64,000 bases of DNA. It comes from Pempheris klunzingeri. Its lineage: Eukaryota; Chordata; Actinopteri; Acropomatiformes; Pempheridae. Numbering within the stretch: the stretch's first letter is position 1; every line of letters begins with the position of its first letter. The stretch is taken from assembly GCF_042242105.1 (NCBI RefSeq), contig NC_092019.1, forward strand, positions 8,584,328 through 8,648,327, read 5' to 3'. Under the pieces are notes generated by a model. It did not search any database, was not told the DNA's origin, and was given only the letters and a program-made list of their open reading frames with translations. Both the position numbers and the translations under genes were made by a program. Shown piece after piece: positions 4,201 through 56,699 of this stretch.

Positions 4201-7200
4201 TGTGAGCTTGTAACTCTATGAGCCCAATCGGAGCCAGAAATTGTCCATCAGAGTTCACTCCGGGTCTTTTACTGGCTCACTTTTATATGTATCTCTATGG
4301 CTTTTCCTTAACTGTTGGTGTTTGTTATACTTTTTATATTATTGGATCTAATCTTATTATCATGTTTGTTTCTACTGGAAAGCACTCTGTTTTGGCGTTA
4401 TTGTTGTTATTGTTGTGACATTACTTAGATTTTAACCAAGTTAGAAGTCATTTGGAAATGTTATTTCCCTTTGGCAGACTATCAAACCTCCCACACACAT
4501 AATCAAGGTAAACAATGCCATCCTGTTGGTTGGTAGTTACTGACATACATTTACATTAGCTGTGGCCACAGTCATGTGTTTATTCAGCTTTTTATTAAGC
4601 CTTTTGTTTGCCTTTATATTATTATTATATTTTATTTTAAACAATATATTATTATTAATAGTATGCAGTAGCTCACTAAATAAGTGTTGTTCTCCACAAC
4701 ACTGTAAAGCTTCACGTCTTTGCAAATGAAATATAAAATGGCAGCTCTGACACTCATTGCACATTTAGAATTGTGGTTCAGTGTTTGCAAAAAAATCCCC
4801 AAAACAAAGCTGGTGAGCAGGTTGCATCTGACACGATAACGCTAGCAGGGGTATCAATGCTTTGTTTTTCTTTTTTAAGGTCGCTTGAAATCCATTTCTG
4901 TCGATGAAACCCAAAATATTTCCACAATGCTGATTTATTTCTGAGGGGAATAAATAAGCTCACTGTGTTTTTCTTGGCTGCTTGCCAGCACTTTAGGTAG
5001 ATGGTACATTTGAACAGAAAAGGTGACACAGACGAGCCATGGGAATTTCAAAATAAAGGTGTATCTTAAAGATGATGATATGGATCGATGTTTTCATTTT
5101 GCATCAATGATACTGGATTGTTGATTGTTGAGTCTATCAGATCTTCAGATCTATCAGAGCCTCACCTGCCATCATGAGAAGAAAAAAAAGAAAGAAAATA
5201 ATAAAATAAAATAATTATCAATACTTTTCCACTGGCCTGTGCTTTAATGCGTTTTCGGTGTGATTCCCAATTTTGATCATTTTTATAGTCAAAGTCAGAT
5301 TTCTTTAAGAACTTTTGGAACATCACGGATTGATCTGGCTATGAATGAACAACGGAGACCTCATATCACCATCCACAATGCTAAGGTAAAAGAAAACCGT
5401 GAGATTTTGAAAGACCTTATAGATGCAGAAATGGAAATGAATTCACATTTATAAAATGGATTTATAAAATTTATTTGCGCATTTTTCTTTTTTTTCCTTT
5501 ATTCATAAAAAAGAGGGTAAAAAACCTATAAATTTAAAATTCTTCGACTGAATTGTGAATTTATGCTATTTTATTAGAATATATGTTTGTAAATCTGACT
5601 TTGAAAGTCAGTGCCTCTCCAACCACAAACCTCGCCGCTCCTCACTGATGTTAGCATACTAATGTTAGCATTTAGCTCAGTCTATAACAGTCTCACAGAG
5701 ATACTAGCATTACTGTTTGCCACCTAAATGTTTGTGCGATCTTAAAAAGAACTGTTCTGAATCTGAAGGAAAAAACACCAGGAAAATGTAATTGATTAAG
5801 TATATCAGTTTCTTGTGTTCCTTAGGAATAAATGTATCAATACCAGCCATACCAGGCCCTTTAATTGTCCAGCATACATGTTGCCATGACACCTGCTCTG
5901 ATAACCTAAAGCTTTTCTGACTGCCAACCAACTACCCAATCAGAGCAGCTCTTACAGCTGCTCTCTCGTTGGCGCTGAGATAAAACAAACTCTACAGTGT
6001 TACTCTTATCTATGGAAATCCTGCATAAAGCACATAAATGCATCATGGAAATTGCTATCTGTAACTGTGTGCACAACAGCCAACTTATTACAGTATGTGC
6101 ACAGTTTGTACCAACAACTCTCCTTTGTTTCTGTTCTTGTCCCAGACTGCCAACTGCAAATCTATTTTACATCTGTCATTTAGAGAGACAGTTGCTTAAA
6201 ATACATATTTCAGCTCATCAAAACTAGCTCATATTACTGTTTTAAATGATAATGTGAAATACATAATTGAACAATTATATAAAAAATAAAATGCTATTTT
6301 GCCATACAATTGCAAAAGGAATACTGTGAAAATTAACTTTTTACCTATAAAGTAGGATGCTGTTTTACTGTGTAGGATGGATGAATAATCACATACAAAA
6401 AGCTGAAATCAGAAATTTTTACTTTTTTTTCTTAAGAAATGACTCGGACCCAATTTTTGGTGATTAATCTAATCTAAATCTAATCTCTACTGTGCACCAG
6501 CCCATGAAGAATATCAATACATGCATGTCAGACTCACTAAGAGGGAGAAGACGAGGGCAGCAACTCCAAGAGGGAGGCAGCAGAACAGCATGGTGAAGAC
6601 GGAGTAGCACAGGTAGTTGGTGTATGGGTTGGGAAGCGGGGCATGAGTCATGTATACTGCGGGCTGGACGGTAACAGTGGCTGGCTGAGCTGGGTCCTGT
6701 TGCCCCATGGGATACTGCTGCTGCTGGCCATATACTGCGAATCCCTGCAAGTGTAATTCAACGTCATTGTCAGGTGAAACTAAACAGAAGTAAGAAGTGT
6801 AAAATAGGTTTGGGGAGGCGGTGAAATTCAGTAAAGTGAAAGGCCTCCAAAGAAACAAAACTACAATTTGTCCACAGGTCTTAAAGATGAACTTGTAGCG
6901 TCAGATTTGGCAAAAACAAGCATTAACTTGTGATGTGAGGGCAAGCACAGATGAAGTGAGATTTAACTGAACAATTCAGGGTGGGTTTAACTGACCTGAA
7001 GGTACAGGAAAGTTTTGATGTTTTTATTGCCCGCACTGGTGGCCTGGTGAGGCACACCATCACAGTCACATCCAACAGATCATTATGCCACAGTTACTAC
7101 AATTACTGACTTATTTATTAAAAGAGATGAGACTTCACGTTCATTTAAATACAGAATATATATATGTATATATATAAATAAAATGTCCCCACAACTAAAT

Positions 7201-7620
7201 TAATATTTCTTTAGGCCTTCACTGGTGAAAAATTTATGTGATGCGGATCAAATTGCTTCTTTTCCTCTGTTAGATTATTAATACTCAATAAGAAAACCCT
7301 ATAGGGCTTTAAATGCACCGTCATTAGTCTGCTATAATATTCAACAGTGTAATAAAGAAAAAAAACAACAAAAAGCTGATGTGTGAAACATCCCCTCATC
7401 TCATCTGTTTCTATCAGTGAGGTGCTGGGCTGCTTACCTGCGGCTGTGGTGGGTACCCCAGGCCGGATGGTGGGTACCCCAGGCCGGATGGTGGGTACCC
7501 CAGGCCGGATGGTGGGTACCCTTGGCCGGTGATGTCATGGTAAGGGGGATTCTGGTCCATGGGGGTCTTCTCATCAGTCCAGCCTGCTGGAGGGGCACTC
7601 GCAGGCTTGTTGGGGTCCAT
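1204..7620 (-). CDS. Proline-rich dispanin / CD225-domain transmembrane protein
   Basis: Three coding exons on the minus strand, 7438-7620, 6538-6744 and 1204-1356, join at phase 0 with GT-AG borders and give 180 aa. I chose the ATG at 7618-7620 (MDPNKP start) over one 33 bases upstream because the family usually begins this way; this is a judgement. Residues 1-100 are rich in Pro, Gly and Gln and include GYPPSGL heptads (residues 34-57). Residues about 102-180 form the CD225 domain: a first hydrophobic segment with the CCLPLGVAALVFS signature, a loop with TREAN, then a second hydrophobic segment ending in SFVN. Dispanins (IFITM, SynDIG, PRRT and TRARG1 relatives) are membrane proteins acting in vesicle trafficking or fusion; which subgroup this is cannot be settled here. 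The last intron is about 5.2 kb and holds a solo LTR. Confidence 0.88.
2145..2535 (+). mobile_element. Solo LTR of an LTR retrotransposon
   Basis: A 391-bp block starts TGTCA and ends TAACA (TG...CA termini) and is flanked by a perfect 5-bp direct repeat, ACAAC (2140-2144 and 2536-2540), as expected for an integrase-made target duplication. Inside, in plus orientation, are a TATAAATAGG box at 2339-2348 and an ATTAAA poly(A) signal at 2454-2459. No internal gag or pol and no second LTR are present, so it is a solo LTR left by recombination. It lies in the last intron of the dispanin gene, antisense to it. Confidence 0.85.
2541..4109. other. Intron sequence, nothing recognised
   Basis: Part of the long last intron of the dispanin gene. 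Short open frames on both strands lack splice context, conserved motifs or codon pattern. Confidence 0.45.
4110..4415 (+). mobile_element. Degenerate LINE (L2/Rex-like) C-terminal fragment
   Basis: A frame near 4114 reads LHWLPV followed by TFKTKT, which resembles the conserved end of the reverse-transcriptase ORF of vertebrate L2-type LINEs. About 90 bases on, ELVTL and then a stop stand where the family usually has a similar LTPY-type motif. The stretch ends in a GGAAAGCACTCTGTTTTG tail like fish L2 3' ends. Stops and frameshifts show it is dead. Family assignment is from memory of motifs. Confidence 0.6.
4416..6537. other. Intron sequence, nothing recognised
   Basis: Rest of the last dispanin intron; AT-rich, no supported feature. 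Confidence 0.45.
7449..7528. repeat. 21-bp coding minisatellite (GYPPSGL)
   Basis: Three identical 21-bp units, 7449-7469, 7470-7490 and 7491-7511, are followed by a partial, slightly changed unit. On the minus strand they encode GYPPSGL heptads in the dispanin N-terminal region. Identity at synonymous positions indicates recent expansion and possible length variation between individuals. Confidence 0.92.
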
Positions 7621-7639
7621 AATGCAGCAGCTTGGTCTC

Positions 7640-8810
7640 CAGATTTTCACAATAAGAGGAAATCTCCCTTTTGTCTCATATGACTTGTGTTTTTTCCTCT
7701 GAAGTGTTGAGTGGGCAGTGAAGTTTCACAAATAAACCTATGCTACTACAAGGTGGAGGTGTGATAATTTTTTTTTTTTTTTTTTTCATCGGTGTAAAGT
7801 CAGGGATTATAAATAAGAGCGTCCGGTCAATACAAATTAAAAGCACGGTCAAACTCAAACTGGGTTGTCCGATTGACCTAAAGAAGTGAAAGATGTACTG
7901 AAACAAGGGTATGTTGTTATGTGAGATGAACTGAAATATGATGACCTTTCTGTGCACACTGGTACGGGAAATAGAAATAGAAAAAAGAAGTAGAAGCGAT
8001 CTAATAAATGAAGAATATAACAAGTAGAACTAATAACAGAGAATGGATTTTGCCTAAATGCATTTATTACACTTATAATGCTTGTATAAAACAAAAGGTC
8101 CGTTTAAAAAAGCAGATGGTCAAATCAAACTGGTGTTGATATATTAATTTTAAGAATGTTTATCAAATGAACTCTTCAACATAGAAAATAATTAGGACGT
8201 ACATTTATCTACCCTCACAGGCAAAAAGTCAGAAAGTGGCCACAAGCACTGAAAGTCACTTTAAGATTTGGGTTTCCTTTTGGGATTGGAAATTGTTTGT
8301 GCCAGTTGGCAATGTCAGAGGAAAGCTTGCATTGATATGTAGGTTGCACTGCTTGTTATGGTGTCATGAGCTTTGTTGCAATGATAAACTCCTTGAGATC
8401 AACCACTTAATTTTCAAGGAGGTAATTTAAAAACATCAACAGACTCTGTTGACTCTGTTCTTGACTCCATATATAAATATAAAATATTTGAAATGTTTTT
8501 AAATTACTTTGAAAATATTACATGTGAAATTAAACATTACATACATACAAACATATACATTTCAGACATTAATATTCTAAATATTTCAGGCTTTTATTTT
8601 TAACGAGTTTCTGGTTCTTTCCTGGCTACCACTGGCTAACTTGAGGCAGCAGTGCTCCTCATTTCAGTGCACCAATAGATGAGGAGGGAGGTGCCAAAGC
8701 AGGCAAGGCCAGGTTTCAGACAGGGTCTGTCTGAAGGGAAAAAAACACATATGCCACTTTTATGGAGGCCCATCTCCATCATTGTGACGCCAAAAGACAG
8801 ATCCTGTAGG
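7640..8810. other. Upstream flank of dispanin, no gene seen
   Basis: Contains a 19-base T tract at 7771-7789 and AT-rich sequence. The dispanin promoter and any untranslated first exon should lie here, but I cannot place a start site. Confidence 0.4.
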
Positions 8811-40503: not shown

Positions 40504-42225
40504 CTAGCCTTGCATGTAAGTATAATGTCTGTAGCAGATGAAGTTTCTTTTTTCTGAGCAGTCCCTGGTGATCCAGTCGTTTGTGTCGGATTTTGAGAGG
40601 GTTCCACAGTGTTTCCCCTGAGACGGACAGTCTGGCAGCCTCTTCTGGTCTTGCAGCTTCACACCGTTCACCCACAACCACTGTCCTTCCAGGAAGCGCA
40701 GGCCTGTCCAGACCTGAGACACACAAGGCAAGCTTTGAGTGTTTTATCTGTGTCTGCTCACACTTTGCTCACACTTTCATTCACCTCATTGCTTAGTTTA
40801 GGAGGTTGCTGTCTGATGAAGCTCAGAGATACTGGTTTGTAAACAATAAGGTTTTCTGGAGTCTATTTGGCTTATCAACACATGTAGTGGTATTCATGTC
40901 TATTGGACAATGTTTTCTTAAATACAACAGTTATGATCTTATCATTTTTGGGAGAAGCAAAATTTGAATCGAAGAGAAGAAATACTTGATGGTTTTATTT
41001 CTGAACTACTATGAGAACTATGAGAGAAGTGAACATCACCCCTTTGTTAAACTGGTCACAACATGTAACCTGTGACAAAGGGTGCTGGGGATTCATCGGT
41101 TCACTTCAAAGGCTCAAAGTTAGAAATCTTTTTAATGACTAAATTTCAAGACAAGTGTACAGAGAATTTTTTTTTGACTAATGTGTAAATCCCTCCACCC
41201 ACTCTCAGACCTCATCGGTTGTGGCTCTGTAGATCTTGTCTCTGACATAGCTGTAGTCAAGCCGGTCCAGACTCAGCAGGTAGTACTTGCAGGGCTCCAA
41301 AAAGTCAGCACACGGGGTTTCCATGTCCCAGCAGTGCCTCAGGGCGTCCTCCCACGTCTTGTTCTCATTCACCAGCACCAGGTTGTCATCATAGCAGCAA
41401 GGCCGAAGCTTTTGGGAGCACACATTACTGTAATACTGTTCAGTGATGGGATCAAAAGAGGCACAGTCTGCGTTGAGTGGCTGTTGTGGTGCCCAGTTTC
41501 TGTAGTTAGATGGCTGACCCCCGATCCAGCTCCAAGTCTCACCAGCCTCTCGGTACAGTCCAATCCAGCCACCTCTGTCTAATGTATCATTACTGGTGAT
41601 GGTGGCTAGTTCACTTTTCCTGTCCTGACAGTACTGAGAGGCATCATACCAGTTCAGGAATAGTTCATGATGTTCAAGGTTGTCCTCTGTTGAGCAGTAA
41701 AAACTATGTTCAGATGAACATCTAGCACTGTACCACCGCTGATCCTCGTCCACAAGTGCACAGTGACCGCTCTGCTGTCCGTCGGCCCAGTATCTGCTCT
41801 GTGAGATACTGTATGCTGAGAGCCCTTCTCCAGTTCTGAAACAAACAAATGATATCTTGCTCAGCAGCTGCATCTCACCTCATTTATATTTCAACATGTT
41901 GAAATCAGCATATAGATAATTTCAAACAGGGTACTCACTTTACGTTTATCCACTTCCAGAGTGAATCATCCTGAGGGTCTCTGACCAGACCGATCCAGAT
42001 TTGACTGACGTTAATTTCCTTCAAGAAAGTTGTCAGTAATAAGTTCTTCCCGGTCAACCCATGAATCAAGTCAATGTAGTTCTTCTGGCAGTGAAGTCTG
42101 GCCTCTGTCCAGGTCATTGTCTTAAATGAACAGTAACTCATTCTTTGTATGATTGATGCCTCTAAGCAAAGAGCAGCGATGAACAGGAAGGAGAGTGTGA
42201 GCTCAAGGCTGCTCTTGTTCCCCAT
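40504..42225 (-). CDS. Secreted protein with three C-type-lectin-like domains
   Basis: Three coding exons on the minus strand, 41939-42225, 41211-41835 and 40504-40713, give 373 aa. A signal peptide (MGNKSS then LFIAALCLEA) starts at the ATG 42223-42225. Domain 1, residues about 30-140, has WTEARLHCQKNY, WIGLVRD and a cysteine-rich end (CSSEHSFYC). Domain 2, about 145-250, has WYDASQYCQDRKSELATI and GGWIGLYREAGETWSWIGG. Domain 3, about 255-370, has TWEDALRHCWDM, VWTGLRFLEGQWLWVNG and RNFICY. No membrane anchor follows, so it is probably secreted. The EPN/QPD and WND calcium-site motifs are absent, so sugar binding by the usual mechanism is unlikely. It resembles the many fish genes labelled mannose-receptor-like. 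The donor after exon 2 is weak (GTCTGA); unspliced RNA would end two codons later. Confidence 0.87.
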
Positions 42226-42754
42226 GACTGGTCCTGTCTTCACATCAAATCAAATATTTGTCTGTTTTCAGAGCCTTTATTATCCAGGTCAGTGGCTGGT
42301 GAAGAGCTATCACTCTGCTCTTATAGCAGTTACATACCTGGTCACTCCCACATAGACACACCTCAGCAGATCCAGCAGACCAGCATCACCTCTCCACACC
42401 AGATGGAGTTAGTCATGTCAGCAATGTTTTATTGTATCACTCTAGTCTCTTAAACTTATCTTTAAATTTGGGCTTATCTTTTAAATTCTCAAACTACTGG
42501 TCCATCTGAGGTCTTTTTTAAATGTTTTTAAATTTGATTTTAAGGATTATAATTTAAATGGTAAATGTTGCAATTAAGAATGCAGGAAAACTAGTAAAAA
42601 TGCAAACTTGACCATACCAACTGATCAGAAGAGTAAAGAAGAGTAATGAGGGAACATGTTCATCATTTCCAAAAAGTTCAACATGCCCAACCTTCTTGTC
42701 TTATCTGACCCATCTTTTCTCCGTTTCCTTTCCATCCTCAGGACCCTCATCATC
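42226..42754. other. Upstream flank of the lectin gene
   Basis: Likely promoter of the minus-strand lectin gene; I cannot place a TATA box or start site with confidence. Confidence 0.35.
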
Positions 42755-45671: not shown

Positions 45672-48600
45672 CTAATAGTGAGGGCAGAACAAGTAAGTGA
45701 AGATATCAGGGGTCAGACTGGATCCGGCCTCAAACATTTCAGACATCCTCTCCAGACTTGGGTTCAGTCCAGCTTTCACTTCACATAGATGGGTCAAAGG
45801 ATCTAAAAATAAACACAGTTCTTTTCTGCTTGCAGCACATCAAAGCAACACATTCCTCTGCTTTCTGTCTCCTTTTAGTCCTTTGTCACTATTGTGGTCG
45901 TATCATCTTCTGTTTCTTTTCCCCCTGAGAACACAAAGACATGACTCATTGATTATCAGTTGTCACTTTGTAGTAAGAGTATTAAATATTACACCAGTGA
46001 AATGAAGCAGTGTGCTTACTGAAGCACTTCTGCAGGGTCTCAGATCTCTGCAGCGTGGTATACAATAAACCGAACACCAACAGGATGCCAAAGAAGCCCC
46101 CAATTGTACAGCCAATGAGAGTGGCATAGCTGGTGCCATTATCTAGGAGTGAAGACAACAGTACAGAGTGAGGGAGGAGAAAAAAATAAAGAAAGAAGTT
46201 AGGACAATAGTAAACAAGCTACATTTTGTGGGTATAAGGTTTAATATGAAATCTAATAAAGAGCAAGGAAGCACTACAATATGCAGAAAGACTGAGTCTT
46301 CACCATAAACATGTAGGACGGCAGCACGCGCATCAGGATTCTTTAACTGCCGGCATACGACTCTCGTGCCGTTGTCAGAGAAGGAAGTTCCCTTGAGGGT
46401 CCACACAGCCAGTGACTCTCCTTCCTTCATGTCACAACTTCCATAGAGAGCCTGAGAGAGAAGACAGGGAAGAAAGCATAAGAGTTTGAAAAAGAATATA
46501 AACATTGTGTGTGCTGTAGAAGCTCTAGCCAGCCTGCAGGACAAGCAGGTATAAATAATGGATGGATGGTGAGAGTGCTGTGTTAGAGCAGGAACAAATG
46601 GTGGTCACATTTATGCTTGAACACTTAAAACTACACCTAAACTAGACAATAATGAACTAGGACTAGATCATTTGGCAACACATGTGGTAGTGCTTTTTTT
46701 CAGTTTTTTTTTTTCTGCTTTATTGTGAGTTATAGTAGAGACAGACAGGGGAGAGAGAGGGTATGATGCAGCAAATGACACAGGCCAGATTCAAATGACA
46801 TTGGAGGCAGCAAACACACTGAACTCACGATCGAATGTTGGTCTCTGCACTTTGTGAAATGTGTGTCTCCACTGTCTTTTGTGTTGATGCGCAGTTCATG
46901 CATCTGATATTTCTGTGAATTGCTTGTAGGTGGACATGCTGTCTGAATCCTGTGTTTCAAACTGGGCCTCGCCATGAACAATGAAAACTACTGCATGATT
47001 CTGAAGGAAAAGCCATTCAATGTTCCTTCTTCTCCTCGTGCTAAACCAAAAACCAAACCAGATCCCAAAAATATATTTAAAATAGCTTGTCGTTTAGCTG
47101 TTGTATAATGTGAAATCTTACAGTGAGTTATTTATTTCAAGTAATTTCAATTGTGAGAATTTTTCCGGTGTGATGATACGTTCAGAGTTCATTCACCAGC
47201 ATGTCTGTTGTCTGATGTCTGATGTTGGTTACTTCCTCAGCTTTGTGTATGTGTAAGTGTGACAACAAGATTCAGGGGGCGACCACCTCACCTGGAGAAT
47301 ATCTTCCACGTGGCCGTACGGGCAGGTGAGGCTATAGTTGCCTTTACTCCCATAGAAGGTGAACGTGAGGTTCGGAGAAGCTGTGGGAACTCCACAGCGA
47401 AACACTGCAGGCTCTCCCACAGCCACCGTGACATCAGCTGGGCGTGTGTGGTAACTGAGAGCTGCAGGGTTCGGTGCTGTTGTGGTGTTGTCACTGGCAG
47501 TGTCCTGAGCTGTATCAGTGGTTGGGTGTTGATTGTATGTGGTTAAGAAATAGTGATAAGGAAGATAGAGCAAAGCATAAGTACAAAATACAACTAGATA
47601 TATTTAAAGGTAAACATATTTAGTACCCGGTGTAAACCATGAGTCACTTTCCATTTGTTAAAACTGAACAAAAATGTGATTTTTAAAGAATAACCCTGAT
47701 ATTTTGAAAATTGTTTTTACATATTTTGGGTCCAAAAGTACTGGTGGGTCCAAAAATCTTTGGAATTGGTCCACTAGATCGCCTCAGCTGGCAGCTGGGA
47801 ACAGGCTGCGAATGCAACCACACTTGCCAAGATACATCCACTATTGCTTGTTTTTGCCCCTGACAAGCTCAAGTTGTTATTCAAGGTATCTGACAACATT
47901 ACAGAAAGGATCTGTACAGAAATAGATATTTAAGATCCTTTTTGTTTAACCAGAAACAGCTTTTATCTGTTCAAAGCCACCAGACTCCATTGACAAAAAC
48001 AGTAATTTTGTCTTGCAAAACACTGGAGTTGCTAGTCTAGTTGCTGTGACTTTGGCTTTTTCAACACATTAGTTTGGGTCAGAACTAACTTTTTAAGACA
48101 CCACAATCACACAATAACACTACAAACCTTGCCCTGAAGCATTACATTGCAACCAGTTTAGCCCGTTCATGGTTTCTGGCTGAGGTGATCTGCTGGACCA
48201 GTTCCAAAACGTTTTGGACTTACTGGTCATTTTGAACCCAAAATATGTAAAAACAATAGGGCCAAGTTTTAAAAATATAGGAGTTATCCTTTAACCTGTT
48301 ACAAACAAATAACCTGTTTAACCTGTTACAATCATCAAAGATTTAAACATCTTTCCATCACTAGATAAACAGAAAGTTATGCAGTTGGATCATTTCTGAA
48401 ATAATTGTGGAGCTATTGTTACGTGCAAAAACAGATCTCCACCTATCCTTGTTGCATGTTTTTTTTCCTCCAGTGCCTCCAATGCCGTCAAAAACATTTG
48501 AATATTCTAATGACTGGAAAAATCACTTTCCCGGAAAACGATTTTCTTGAAAGGGTGGGAAGGTTTGTGATACTGTTCTAGTGAAACTCTTACAGGCTAT

Positions 48601-51031: not shown

Positions 51032-54000
51032 ATGATCGCAATGCTGATGCTTCTGATCCTGAAGTCAGGTAAGGAGTGATTATTTATCAATTTACTTTTT
51101 AAGACAACGAGCAAGATTGTATTTAAAAGCACACAAACCTGGTTTCCTCCCAAAACTTATTAAGACTGGGGATGGTTGTAACACTTTTTCTCTCAGAACT
51201 CATAACTTGTTGAACTTTTGTGTTAAAGCTGTCAAACTTTGTACCCTCGTTTGTCTATTACAAAAAGCAATGTTTCCAACTTCTCCAGCTCCAGGAGTCT
51301 ATATTCATAAAGAACCATGTTAATGTTGCATTAAAGGGACTAAAAACCTACTTAAAAACATTTCGTTGTTAAAAACATTTCACCCTTTAATAGGTTCTCC
51401 TTGAGCATACCTTGTTTCTTGGCTGTTGTACCTAAGTGACCACAACAATTATTGAACAAATCTTTAATTTATAACTGCAAGCTAAAAGAAATTCTACAGT
51501 TACTTGAAAATAATTATTTTAAGCACATCTTTTATAAATTTGGCCTACCACATCACACAGCACACAAAGGCTGGTCTAAGCTGCTCTCTCAGGTGTGTCT
51601 CAGTGCAGGTAGAAAGATGCAGATGAGCTAGAGTTGTTGTTACCTCTACTTTGAGTTGTTTTTTTTTATTTCTGTAGAACCCAGGAATTCATTTTATCCC
51701 CCCCACATCCTACACATCCAAAAGATAACAAAATATTGCTGCAGAGAAGTACCCTGTTATACTGCTGTGTGTTTCCATTTCCTCTCATTGATTGAGAATC
51801 AGTAAAACAAATACAAATGCGTTATATTATGATCTCTCTGCAGGAACTGTGGGTGCTGATTGGTCAGTGACTTTTGAAAACCCAAATCCTTGTGCTTTAA
51901 AGGGGTCATCTGTGAAGTTCAGGTGCTCATACAATTACGACGATGGCGAAACTGTCAGAGAGACTTCATGGCACAAAGGGATGTTAAAAGACAGCCTCTG
52001 GACACGTGTTGAGCTTTCAGACCTTCCTTCATATCAAAATCGCTCTGAATATTTGGGTGACAAGCAGCACGACTGTAGCCTGTCAATTCATGACCTGCAG
52101 GATAATGACACTGGATATTACTACTTCAGGTTTGATTCGGCTAGGTATGGATGGCGGAGTAAAAAATCTGTGTATCTGTCTGTCACAGGTAAAATTAATC
52201 CTCATTGAGCTTTAAACCTTTAGCTTAATATATTCACCTTTTTGTGCAATGTCATGATTTTATTAACTGTTTGATGTCCAGAGCTGAGAGCCAGAGTGCA
52301 CCCTGAGAGTGTGAGAGCAGGAGACAATGTGACTCTTGAATGTGGAACATCCTGCCAAATTTCCAGCGCGGTTTGGTTCAAAGATGGACGTCCAGTAGCC
52401 AAACCAGAGTTTCAGGCTCAGACAGAGGATGCTGGGAATTATTCATGTGCTGTTGAAGGACAGGAGTTGGTGCTATCGGACCCTGTGGCTCTGAATGTTC
52501 AGTGTAAGTTTAATATGACGTTATTGGCTGAGAAACTGGTATTTTCCCCTTATGATGCTTGCACTTAAAGGAATAGCTCGACATTTTAGGATATACTCAC
52601 TACTATTTATTTTTTTATCCTCAGAGGTAGATGAGAAGATTAATACCACTCTCATGTCTGTCCAATAAATAGGAATCTTTCAACAGCCTGTTGGCTTTAG
52701 TTAAAAACTGGAAATAAGGGGAAACAGCTACTCTGGATCTGTCCTAAAGTGACAAAATCTTCCTGAAACTAGTGACTGAGATCATAGACTAGACATGCGC
52801 ACTGTTGTAATAAATCAAATGAGAAATAGGGTAATTTTCTCATAGATTTCCTTTTGGAACCAGTAGAGTTGCCCCCTGTTGATTAGAAAGAATGCAAGTT
52901 CAGGCATTTCTGAATTTCCTTCACTTCTCAGACGTAGAAGGTATCTTTTACACAGTCTGTGCTTTATAGTCTTGATTTATTATTGTACAGACATGAATGT
53001 GGTATCATTCTAAATCTAATTCCCAGCAACAAAGCAAATAGGCGCATTTCCCTAAATGTCAAGCCACGTCTTTAATTCTTTCTTTTGTTTATGAAATATG
53101 CTTTGACAATTTATGATTTGGTACTCAATATATAGCATAATCCATGAATGGTTCCTTGTGAATGTATACAACAGCACAGTGGTTGTGTTTTTACTGCAGA
53201 TCCCCCGTTGAATGTGTCCACTGAGGTGAGTCATCCTGGCCACCTGACATTGGGCAGCAGTGTGACTCTGACCTGCAGCAGTGCTGCTAACCCTGCAGCA
53301 CACATCTACAGCTGGTACAAGAGGAGGGCTTCTCCGAGCTCCATGATCCAGGTGGGCTCAGGACAGGTGCTGTCTCTCCCCTCTGTGGAGGCGTCCCACG
53401 CTGGACTCTACCTCTGCCAGGCCAGGAACCCACTGGGGGAAAACAACTCAACTGAGTTGCTGCTGACAGTGGACAAAACAGACGGTGAATATGCAATAAC
53501 TCCTCCGATGGGGAATGATGTAAATGTTGCAAACTAGCCTGATTGGAAGGATTTTTAGGGGAGTGGGCGAACAATCTCAAGCAAAAATCGTATTTATCTC
53601 ATATGCATCCATAAATCAACAGTCAGATCCAAAACTTCTCGTTGAAATGGGCTGCCTTTAAAAAATATAGTATGATTGATTTAAAAAAACATCAACTAAA
53701 TTTTTACAATGTATTTGCTGAAGATTTAACTAATCCTATAGGTTCAATCTTTCTCTTTCTACCTCTACCTCTGCTAACAGGGAACCGTTTGATCCTCCTT
53801 GTTGGTATTGGAGTCAAAGTTGTTATTTTGCTGTTCCTTCCACTGTGTATTATCTGGACTTGGTAGGTTACATTATACACACTATTTGACATGGTTTATT
53901 TTATCATGACTGTCATGATATGTTACAGAAATTAATGTATAAACTTTTCTTATTTCACTGTTAAAGGAGGCAGAGACACAAGTTGGCTGGGGAAAAAGAG

Positions 54001-54192
54001 GTAAGACGGACCCAGATCTTAAATAGATTAATAAATTAACGATAAATTAATAATAGTTAATAATAATTAATGATAGTTTCTCACAAAATGTCTGTTATGC
54101 TTTAGGAGGACAGCCAAGATTATGAAAACATCAGCGCTGCAAGGATTGGTCAAAAAAACAAGGTCACAGAGAAGGAAATGTTTGATGTTTGA
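51032..54192 (+). CDS. Siglec-type receptor with membrane lysine (CD22/MAG-like)
   Basis: Seven coding exons, 51032-51068, 51844-52188, 52282-52503, 53200-53484, 53781-53862, 53967-54000 and 54106-54192, all GT-AG and phase-consistent, give 363 aa. After a signal peptide come a V domain (residues about 18-127) and two C2-type Ig domains (128-201, 202-296). The V domain has the Siglec cysteine pattern: C29, C40 and C90, with the second partner in strand E (DCSLSI) and none in strand F. R108 in YYYFRFD matches the Siglec sialic-acid-binding arginine. C152 in domain 2 can form the interdomain bond. The membrane helix (300-322) contains K309. The tail is short, with one tyrosine in DYENI: a YxN (Grb2-type) site, not an ITIM. 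Lysine plus no ITIM suggests pairing with a DAP12-like adaptor; this is inference. Ligand and cell type are unknown. Confidence 0.88.
52565..52770. mobile_element. Fragment of a fish TTAA-type MITE
   Basis: Begins TTAA then AGGAATAGCTCGACATTTT and continues with GAGAAGATTAATACCACTCT and GGGGAAACAGCTACTCTGG, a sequence seen repeatedly in teleost genomes. It lies in the intron between the second and third Ig exons of the Siglec-type gene. Confidence 0.6.
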
Positions 54193-54341
54193 TTGGAAAT
54201 GATGATGTTTCATTTCACTAGATACATGATTTGGCACTTGGCACAGAGATGTCTGTGGTTTGCTCACTGCTGGGAAAAAACAGCTTGATTTGGAGATGAT
54301 GACCACATTTCCTGGCATGAAAAATGCAGTGACACATATCA

Positions 54342-55035
54342 TTAAAGGGATAGCTCAGATTTTTTTAAGTGTGGTTGTTTGAGGTACTTATCCATAGTTA
54401 GTGTATTACCGACAGTAGATGGTGGTCAGCATGCTGCTGGTTTGGAGAAACAGGCAGCATTCTCAGCACAGACACGTGCACACTAAATGATGTACATTAT
54501 ATTTCGGATATTTTTACCGCTTTACATAGCTCTCAGGCAACCCTTTCCACAGGGAACTACAGCCGTTCTGTCTTTCTTTTTGCTCACTTCAAAGTCACCA
54601 GACTCTATTGACAAAAACACTCATTTTACCTTGCAGAACACAGGAGTTCCCTGAGTTACCACTGCCATGATCTGTGAACTAACACATTAGTTTGGATCCA
54701 AACTAACCGTTTAAAACACCAAAGTCACACAATAACACCAGAAAACTAACCAGTCGAGACAGCTGTAAACTAGATAGAGCAGATAGAACTGCTGTTTTTG
54801 TCATTGGAGTCTGGTGACCTTGAAGTGAACAACGAGAGATAACGCCTTCTCCTGCTCTGTGGAAATGGATGTCTGACAGCAAAATATTCTAATTCAAGTG
54901 TACATCTTAATTGATATTAAATTGAATTAGTTGGGCTTTTTTAGGTGAAAAATGTGTTTTTCCACCTGCTCCTCCAAACTGTGGGTGTGCTGACTGCCAT
55001 CTATTGTATATAATACACTATATACAATGTCTCCT
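54342..55035. mobile_element. TTAA-type element with nested inverted repeats
   Basis: The left end TTAA then AGGGATAGCTCAG leads into GAGGTACTTATCCATAG and a GTAGATGGTGGTCAGC block; the latter is mirrored near 54965-55015. An inner inverted pair (TCACCAGACTCTATTGACAAAA near 54594 and its mirror near 54809) is also present. The outer right end is missing. It follows the Siglec-type gene's stop, so it may form part of the 3' UTR. Confidence 0.65.
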
Positions 55036-56699
55036 GACTCCTGAGACAGAAGAGAAAACATTACTCATGCTTATTTAATCTATTAAATACCCACAACCTT
55101 GTAACCTTCAGTAGTCAGTATCAGCAGTAGTTATCCTGGTTGAGTATGCTTTGTATGTTTTCTGTTGTATTCATGCCCATTTGAACAGTGTCTCTGGTCT
55201 GAAATATTGTATCTTTTCACTTCGGGTACAGCAGACTGTATCCAGAGTCACTGTGGTCAAACCAGGATATGCTGCCTCCTAGAGTTTGAAATACTCATGT
55301 ACATTATCTCTTGGTGAACTTGGAAATATTTTGTTACATTCAGTTGACCAACTTATTTGTTGTTTTCTAAGGCATATTGTCGTGCCCTCTTCATTATCAA
55401 TATACTTTGTTTGATAGTCATTTTTTTGTTTTATTTATTTAAGCAAGTGTTCTTAACTTGTTTTCTTGTACAATTAACTCTTTTAATTTGTTATAAGAAA
55501 TCAACCATTTTGTAAATCTTGTATTATACAAATGCTAAAAGTGGACATTAAATGCAACTGAGCAAATATTCTCTTCAATTGATGTGCACATATGTTAAAC
55601 TGTCTCTTTAAATGTTTGAGAATTGAAACACTGCATTTCTTTGTTTGCTTGATTAACATTTAAAAATAGAAAATGTGTGCGCCACTATAATATGTGAAAC
55701 AACAAAAGCTCAAGTCTAAAAACAGGCTAATGAGATGAAGAGTTGATATCCAAGTACATTTTGTAAATGGGTGTCCTGGCGTCAGAGTCACTGTCCTCCT
55801 GGTTTCCATCCTCCTCCACTTCTCCTCGGGCTCTGGTCAGTATCTGTTAGAGCCTTATCACACTGAGGAGTTTACTCAAAGCCACACAGATGAGACCCGG
55901 TCTCCACTGCTCACAGCTTTTAATTGGATCATTATGACTGTTTTTCCGTCATCATCTTCATGCTCATCATCATCCTCAAAGGAATAGCTGCTTCAGTGTT
56001 CTCTGTTTCTGGACATTGCTTACACAGTACTTGGTGCACTCTGTGGTGTGTTTAACTCCAGTGGAAGTATCAGTGCTAACAACAACTCCGGATGTCATCT
56101 GTGGACCATGAAGGACATATTCCAATTCACATCTGTGACTGCCAAATGGTGCAACTGACAAGAGCACAAAGTGCAAAGACATAATAGAAGATTTTCTCAG
56201 TCATAATAAATATTTTTTAGAATTCAGTTCCAACTGCACTTAAACAAATGATCAGAGACCCACAAGCCAACAGAAAATAAATATTCAGACTTTGCAGTCA
56301 AGTTGATCCTTATTCAACTCGGTGCATAGAAATCCAGGAATTTAGAATTTCATTGTGATGTCCTGCTTGTTTTGATGTACAGTCATTTCTATCATATGGT
56401 CTTCAGGCTCTCATTCTCTGTGTGAATTGGCGCCACTGTCAACAGTCTTGGGAGTTGTTTTTCTTCTGTGTACATGACTTCAGTCATGGGCTTAAGCAGG
56501 CCACAGTGTGCTACAGCATGTGATAGTTTTAAAGGGTTGACTTGGCAACAAAAGGCGTGAAGGTAAAACCACAAAAGTGTCTGAAAAAAAGGGTACTGAG
56601 AGGAAATTCTTCTCATTTTGAGTGACTTAAATAACAAAAGGTGTCATATGTTCTTAGTGGTTGCAGGGTGTTTATACTAGTTTTGTGCAGTATCAGTCC
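55036..56699. other. Between the two convergent Siglec genes, no gene seen
   Basis: AT-rich; probably 3' UTR of one or both genes (an ATTAAA poly(A)-type signal at about 55547 suits the plus-strand gene). No further exon recognised. Confidence 0.4.

Follow-up and report, generated by a model that had tools for sequence, protein, structure and literature searches.

In a window of 64,000 nucleotides of Pempheris klunzingeri (the whole stretch of DNA that was analysed, C8:8584328-8648327 of a 646-Mb assembly, C8 being contig NC_092019.1), one gene on the plus strand, referred to here as gene A (51032-54192), probably encodes a short, activating Siglec of the teleost CD22 lineage that would be coupled to an adaptor bearing an immunoreceptor tyrosine-based activation motif (ITAM). 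Its seven exons, all with GT/AG borders, join into one open frame of 1092 bases for a protein of 363 amino acids with a signal peptide, a Siglec-type V domain, a short immunoglobulin (Ig) domain, a C2 domain, one membrane helix and a tail of 39 residues (Table 1). The initial annotation, which had suggested an activating Siglec, placed the codon of Arg108 at 52128-52130 and that of Lys309 at 53816-53818, and both positions are exact in the joined seven-exon frame. Sugar binding, adaptor pairing, the direction of signalling and the cell type are what we infer from the sequence. No further Ig exons were found within gene A when its protein was searched against the window by tblastn, and no relatives were found in viral and prokaryote collections, as expected. 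With three Ig domains the protein departs from CD22 (Siglec-2) proper, as mammalian CD22 has seven Ig domains and no basic residue in its helix.

Family placement of gene A was made on the search with its V domain, not on that with the whole protein. The V domain matched the Pfam models V-set (1.3e-16) and Ig_CD22 (2.4e-10), as the N-terminal V-set domain of a Siglec should, and its first match among solved structures was CD22 (9.8e-11). Of the 21 matches with E values of 0.011 or lower, 19 were Siglecs (CD22, Siglec-7, CD33, Siglec-8, Siglec-5, sialoadhesin, Siglec-10 and MAG), with JAML and SYG-2 as the only exceptions, and the remaining 34 of the 55 matches to E 1 were other Ig proteins. 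When the whole protein was used, carcinoembryonic antigen and FcRL5 ranked over CD22, which is caused by the C2 domains of gene A. Arg108 and Trp116 align with Arg120 and Trp128, the sialic-acid residues of CD22, and the register is the same in Siglec-7; Arg108 therefore stands at the F-strand arginine by which Siglecs contact sialic acid, and the Siglec-type V domain with its key arginine, as initially proposed, is supported by both the Pfam matches and the alignment. A genome search with the Ig_CD22 model returned at least 26 CD22-type V exons, and among the 26 found the spacing with tryptophan eight residues past the arginine is present in gene A alone.

The Siglec disulfide pattern described in the initial annotation held only in part. 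Cys40 and Cys90 align with the B- and E-strand cysteines of CD22 and Phe107 occupies the usual F-strand cysteine position, which gives, at the sequence level, a B-to-E disulfide instead of a B-to-F one. The position of the interdomain cysteine, on the other hand, is taken by Ser35, where CD22 has a cysteine five residues ahead of that of the B strand. Cys29 is found six residues earlier than Ser35, and a C-x3-C motif (Cys148, Cys152) is present in domain 2. A relocated disulfide between domains 1 and 2, formed by Cys29 with Cys148 or Cys152, may well be present, as the V exons of a tandem array of CD22-like genes on another contig, C3, share the early cysteine and the Ig domains of the array genes contain C-x3-C. 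Of the further CD22 contacts listed in PMC7226832, E126 corresponds to Tyr114 and R131 to Lys119 of gene A; in salmonid CD22, R120 is reported to be retained and nearly all other contact residues to be absent (PMC7226832). The V domain of gene A would most likely bind sialylated glycans via Arg108 and Trp116.

The tail of gene A has a lone tyrosine, Tyr341, in the motif DYENI, which is of the Grb2-type YxN form. Pattern scanning of the tail in the gene model revealed no immunoreceptor tyrosine-based inhibitory motif (ITIM), no immunoreceptor tyrosine-based switch motif (ITSM) and no ITAM, so that the ITIM-bearing tail of CD22 proper is missing and the first description of one Grb2-type tyrosine in place of ITIMs was correct. 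Together with Lys309 this makes a basic helix residue without an ITIM, the layout of the adaptor-coupled Siglecs. No alternative membrane exon lacking the lysine was found in introns 3 to 6, in which the best hydropathy was 1.83 compared with 2.81 for exon 5. The membrane-insertion estimate over 21 residues was -1.57 for the helix of gene A and -4.74 for that of gene B, the CD22-like neighbour of gene A; the lysine thus carries a cost, with the score still favouring insertion. A genome search for a second copy of the helix or tail returned gene A alone.

The 26 V exons are distributed over several loci of C8 and C3 (Table 1), and the sialic-acid arginine is retained in 23 of them, being replaced by tyrosine in gene B and by methionine in two array genes. 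In the V-domain tree, gene A, gene B and the 17 array V exons formed one group with a support of 90/69, which is to be taken as moderate only since long branches meet there, and human CD22 was placed weakly beside this group (73/76). Similarly, the array was nearest to the V domain of gene A in BLAST comparisons (best 66 bits; 32-37% identity), with L034 at C8:13.33 Mb (36%) and gene B (35%) close behind. L034 matched the solved structures of sialoadhesin (3.6e-18) and MAG (2.1e-13), and the top solved structure for the array V exon L018 was sialoadhesin (4.2e-5). The V exon with the highest Ig_CD22 score, L009 (7.1e-38), is left without a name, as its solved-structure matches include no clear Siglec; Siglec-7 came at 0.0054, after an antibody and the coxsackievirus-adenovirus receptor. 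The "CD22/MAG-type position" of the initial annotation was not confirmed, because the MAG/sialoadhesin-like V exons at C8:13.33 Mb and the Siglec cluster at C8:21.95-21.99 Mb lie on the same contig as gene A (C8:8.64 Mb) but are not adjacent to it. In that cluster, three Siglec-type genes (L035-L037, C8:21953001-21981000) have uncharged helices and ITIM-like tails with VEYASI, VEYSHI, VEYSKL and VVYSNV, the V exons in C8:21.96-21.98 Mb having been paired with tails by their order.

A basic membrane residue is not unique to gene A, as the first description had implied. Ten of the 17 array genes resemble gene A in layout, with arginine as the basic residue, and share the membrane exon NIIRLSLVVVMLIPLLLLCLW (helix NIIRLSLVVV), and a genome search with this exon returned ten copies, identical at the protein level and every one located in the array. 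Tails could be read for six of the ten, the fetched stretch having ended ahead of the tail in the other four, and each contained one tyrosine in [PL]DYINVPD. The form PDYINV, present in four of the six, is outside the ITIM consensus, [IVLS]xYxx[LV]. Tails were also read for three array genes with a neutral helix, and every one contains ITIMs (LQYASV, or LYYASV plus VEYTVV); left out of these counts were L028, with a neutral helix and no tail found, and L022, L026 and L029, with no helix found in the fetched stretches. A basic residue mid-helix and the absence of an ITIM, as claimed for gene A, are supported, and the array repeats the pairing of a basic helix and a YxN tail. From the sequences it looks as if helices with a basic residue are accompanied by a single YxN tyrosine and neutral ones by ITIMs, gene B, which is neutral and ITIM-free, representing a third state. 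Gene A has the appearance of the lysine-type member in a paired set, the rest of which combine either a basic helix and a YxN tail or a neutral helix and ITIMs. As the array genes are tandem copies and so not independent of one another, no p-value is given for the association between helix and tail. Previous work on Siglecs described helix charge and the ITIM tyrosine as mutually exclusive features (PMC6890642). Two of the arginine-helix genes, L030 and L031 (C3:2899420 and C3:2892367), combine the arginine helix with methionine at the position of the sialic-acid arginine and with LDYINV, which could possibly indicate a different use of the same frame.

By mammalian rules the central lysine of gene A is presumably DAP12-like, and the arginine at the outer end of the array helices FcR-gamma-like. 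Potential partners are available, as four membrane exons of the CD3-zeta/FcR-gamma type, each with an LDG aspartate, were found in the genome, and fish possess both FcR-gamma and DAP12 (PMC4810170). A precedent is mouse CD33, a receptor with a lysine in the membrane and without a bona fide ITIM, whose surface expression depends on Dap12 (PMC6890642). In fish, catfish IpLITR 2.6b resembles gene A in being an Ig receptor with a membrane lysine and a short tail, but it is a leukocyte immune-type receptor and no Siglec; it was reported to bind not DAP12 but chains of the FcR-gamma, FcR-gamma-like and CD3-zeta-like kinds (PMC4810170), and DAP12 as the partner of gene A, which the initial annotation had suggested, is accordingly not established. 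In the proposed mechanism, sialylated glycans would be bound by the V domain with Arg108 and Trp116, Lys309 would engage the aspartate of a small adaptor that carries an ITAM, DAP12 or one of the FcR-gamma/CD3-zeta group, and ligand binding would lead to Syk-type signalling and cell activation. The lone DYENI tyrosine, which resembles the Grb2 site of CD22, may tune the activating signal.

The closest published relative is the CD22 of Nile tilapia, On-CD22 (LOC102077587), described with 356 amino acids, a V domain (26-128), an Ig domain (134-202), a C2 domain (219-278), one helix and a tail motif at 335-341 (PMC12837193), i.e., an equal layout and a nearly equal length to gene A. Its start-codon primer matched gene A at 18 of 21 positions (maximum of 15 in 300 shuffles) and its 663F primer matched domain 3 at 16 of 18 (shuffles, 14), in the same order as in On-CD22. 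The 858R primer matched weakly at 13 of 18, which is not above the shuffles (14), and the stop-codon primer had no match in gene A (best 14 of 21, against 15 in shuffles); the best values of these primers against gene B were 15, 12, 11 and 13. On-CD22 is probably the orthologue or a close paralogue of gene A with a different C-terminus, because the start-codon and 663F primers match and the stop-codon primer does not. Unlike gene A, On-CD22 was described as comprising eight exons and bearing an inhibitory motif of ITSM-like form, and the main text of the same report does not mention a lysine (PMC12837193). The expression primer in Table 1 of that report has the His tag ahead of the signal peptide, from which position it may be removed from the mature protein (PMC12837193).

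Several observations weigh against an activating receptor. Four ITIM-like strings, recognized by pattern, are present in open frames past the stop codon (54379, 55003, 55299 and 56015, within 54193-56500) and could belong to a longer tail. LDYINV, found in two of the six arginine-helix tails read (L030 and L031), formally fits the ITIM consensus, and a basic helix and an ITIM-like tail are therefore not strictly exclusive. This form of the array motif could suit a damping receptor, i.e., a shortened CD22 that inhibits through its Grb2-type tyrosine, as in the action of CD22 YENV with PMCA, in the absence of an ITAM adaptor, the lysine being tolerated or serving trafficking only. Mammalian CD22 shares with gene A the register of Arg120 and Trp128 and a YENV-like Grb2 motif, and this YENV site, which DYENI resembles, attenuates calcium (PMC6286995); it differs in its three ITIMs (PMC6286995), of which gene A has none, and in lacking the three-Ig layout and Lys309. 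Moreover, On-CD22 with its ITSM-like motif lowered IFN1 and IFN3 reporters and also raised those of NF-kB and STAT1 (PMC12837193), a result that does not read as simply activating, though the rise counts against a damping receptor. As the tail of gene A lacks any ITIM or ITSM pattern and ITIMs of the LQYASV/LYYASV type sit in neutral-helix array genes (three of three read), we consider a damping receptor rather unlikely. Fish receptors with a membrane lysine also need not obey the DAP12 rule, as catfish IpLITR 2.6b demonstrates (PMC4810170). Lysine or arginine in hydrophobic frames is not rare, being found in the central 11 residues of 7 of 28 hydrophobic 21-mers, that of gene A counted, from the stop-to-stop frames of at least 40 amino acids in the window; a basic residue within a hydrophobic stretch is thus weak evidence by itself, and for this reason the weight of the activating layout comes from the combination of features and from the relatives. 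Similarly, gene B, with no equivalent of Arg108, no helix charge and no ITIM, reveals that the family can lose all three. Both the frequency of such residues and the losable signalling parts would agree with a non-signalling, adhesion-type Siglec that binds sialic acid and carries its membrane lysine and tail tyrosine only incidentally. The ten identical arginine helices and the YxN tails in the array are hard to regard as drift, even if tandem copies are not independent, and an adhesion-type receptor appears improbable.

Other known Siglecs with a basic helix residue were also compared with gene A. Siglec-15 has two Ig domains and belongs to a lineage of its own, and Siglec-14, Siglec-16, Siglec-H and mouse CD33 are CD33-related mammalian genes, whereas gene A groups with the CD22-like genes of its own genome. 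All five share a basic helix residue with gene A, and according to PMC6890642 and PMC7226832 no bona fide ITIM is present in mouse CD33 or in Siglec-14, -15 and -16. In fish, four Siglecs were described as regular, with Siglec-15 the activating one, and inhibitory CD33-related Siglecs as obviously absent from the genomes (PMC7226832). Gene A could be the fish orthologue of Siglec-15, which also has an arginine in the V domain and a lysine in the membrane and occurs in salmonids, while no percid Siglec-15 was found in public databases according to the same source (PMC7226832). However, its V domain was closest to CD22 and matched no Siglec-15 chain to E 1, though another V domain of the genome matched 7zoz (Siglec-15), and it has three Ig domains; a Siglec-15 orthologue is thus largely refuted and very improbable. 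The view that gene A is a pseudogene or the product of an assembly error deserves hardly any credence, as it is contradicted by seven exons with correct borders in a single open frame and by two primers of an expressed tilapia gene that match well with their order kept.

Beyond gene A itself, fish could possess a paired Siglec system of their own within the CD22 lineage, independent of the mammalian CD33-related Siglecs. The array mixes arginine-helix/DYINV and neutral-helix/ITIM receptors with closely alike V domains, the lysine-helix gene A lies on another contig, and the three-Ig "CD22" of fish, which has been studied as an inhibitory receptor of B cells, would be an activating member. This is a tentative proposal on which we are nearly evenly divided, leaning slightly towards doubt. 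For fish, neither a CD22-type Siglec with lysine or arginine in its helix nor a paired array of Siglecs was found in the literature, a weak negative that covers titles and abstract openings, with subscription papers mostly outside its scope; what looks new is an adaptor-type receptor within the CD22 lineage as part of an apparent fish paired-Siglec set. In this single genome, basic-helix and ITIM-type receptors both occur in a set of at least 26 CD22-type V exons. Should the pairing prove real, Siglecs of the activating and the inhibitory kind would have originated repeatedly, and the published data on an inhibitory CD22 in fish would deserve renewed scrutiny.

Table 1. Exons and key codons of gene A (positions in the window) and the CD22-type V exons found in the genome
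Feature	Position	Strand	Evidence or members
Exon 1, signal peptide MIAMLMLLILKS	51032..51068	+	Donor GTAAGG; in frame with exon 2; match to tilapia CD22 start primer
Exon 2, Siglec-type V domain	51844..52188	+	Pfam V-set, Ig_CD22; top solved structure CD22, 9.8e-11
Codon of Arg108, F-strand sialic-acid arginine	52128..52130	+	Aligned with CD22 Arg
Codon of Trp116, 8 residues past Arg108 as in CD22 and Siglec-7	52152..52154	+	Alignment
Exon 3, short second Ig domain with C-x3-C (C148, C152)	52282..52503	+	
Exon 4, third Ig (C2) domain	53200..53484	+	Pfam Ig_3, Ig_2, I-set in residues 213-292
Exon 5, membrane helix, residues about 300-322	53781..53862	+	Best hydropathy windows 300-318, 301-321
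Codon of Lys309, mid membrane helix	53816..53818	+	
Exon 6, short cytoplasmic exon	53967..54000	+	GT/AG borders, frame
Exon 7, tail end and stop; Tyr341 (54121-54123) in DYENI	54106..54192	+	
CD22-type V exons (26)	Genes A and B; 2 at C8:13.33 Mb; 5 at C8:21.95-21.99 Mb; 17 on C3 (2.83-2.93, 3.34-3.40 Mb)		
Array of 17 CD22-like V exons	C3:2835000-2932500 and 3342000-3406500		L013-L022, L025-L031, L038-L062

Gene B is a CD22-like gene on the minus strand, from 62769 to about 56956 and convergent with gene A, with 404 amino acids in an eight-exon model. It is 29% identical to gene A over 381 columns, its V domain is divided among three exons and a tyrosine is found at the position of Arg108. 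As a member of the same family without the arginine and the lysine, it is a useful control.

Three further regions of the window, all on the minus strand, contained gene pieces. At 45985-47603 a possible gene for a small Ig-like membrane protein was recognized by eye, its pieces being without a Pfam match over the curated cut-off. A membrane protein of the CD225/IFITM family lies at 6517-7725, with CD225 matched at 1.6e-8 for 6517-6900 and the proline-rich piece at 7417-7725 unmatched. Pieces of a gene with a C-type lectin domain are present at 41205-42249 (Lectin_C, 1.9e-12 and 3.1e-4, the second just under the curated cut-off).

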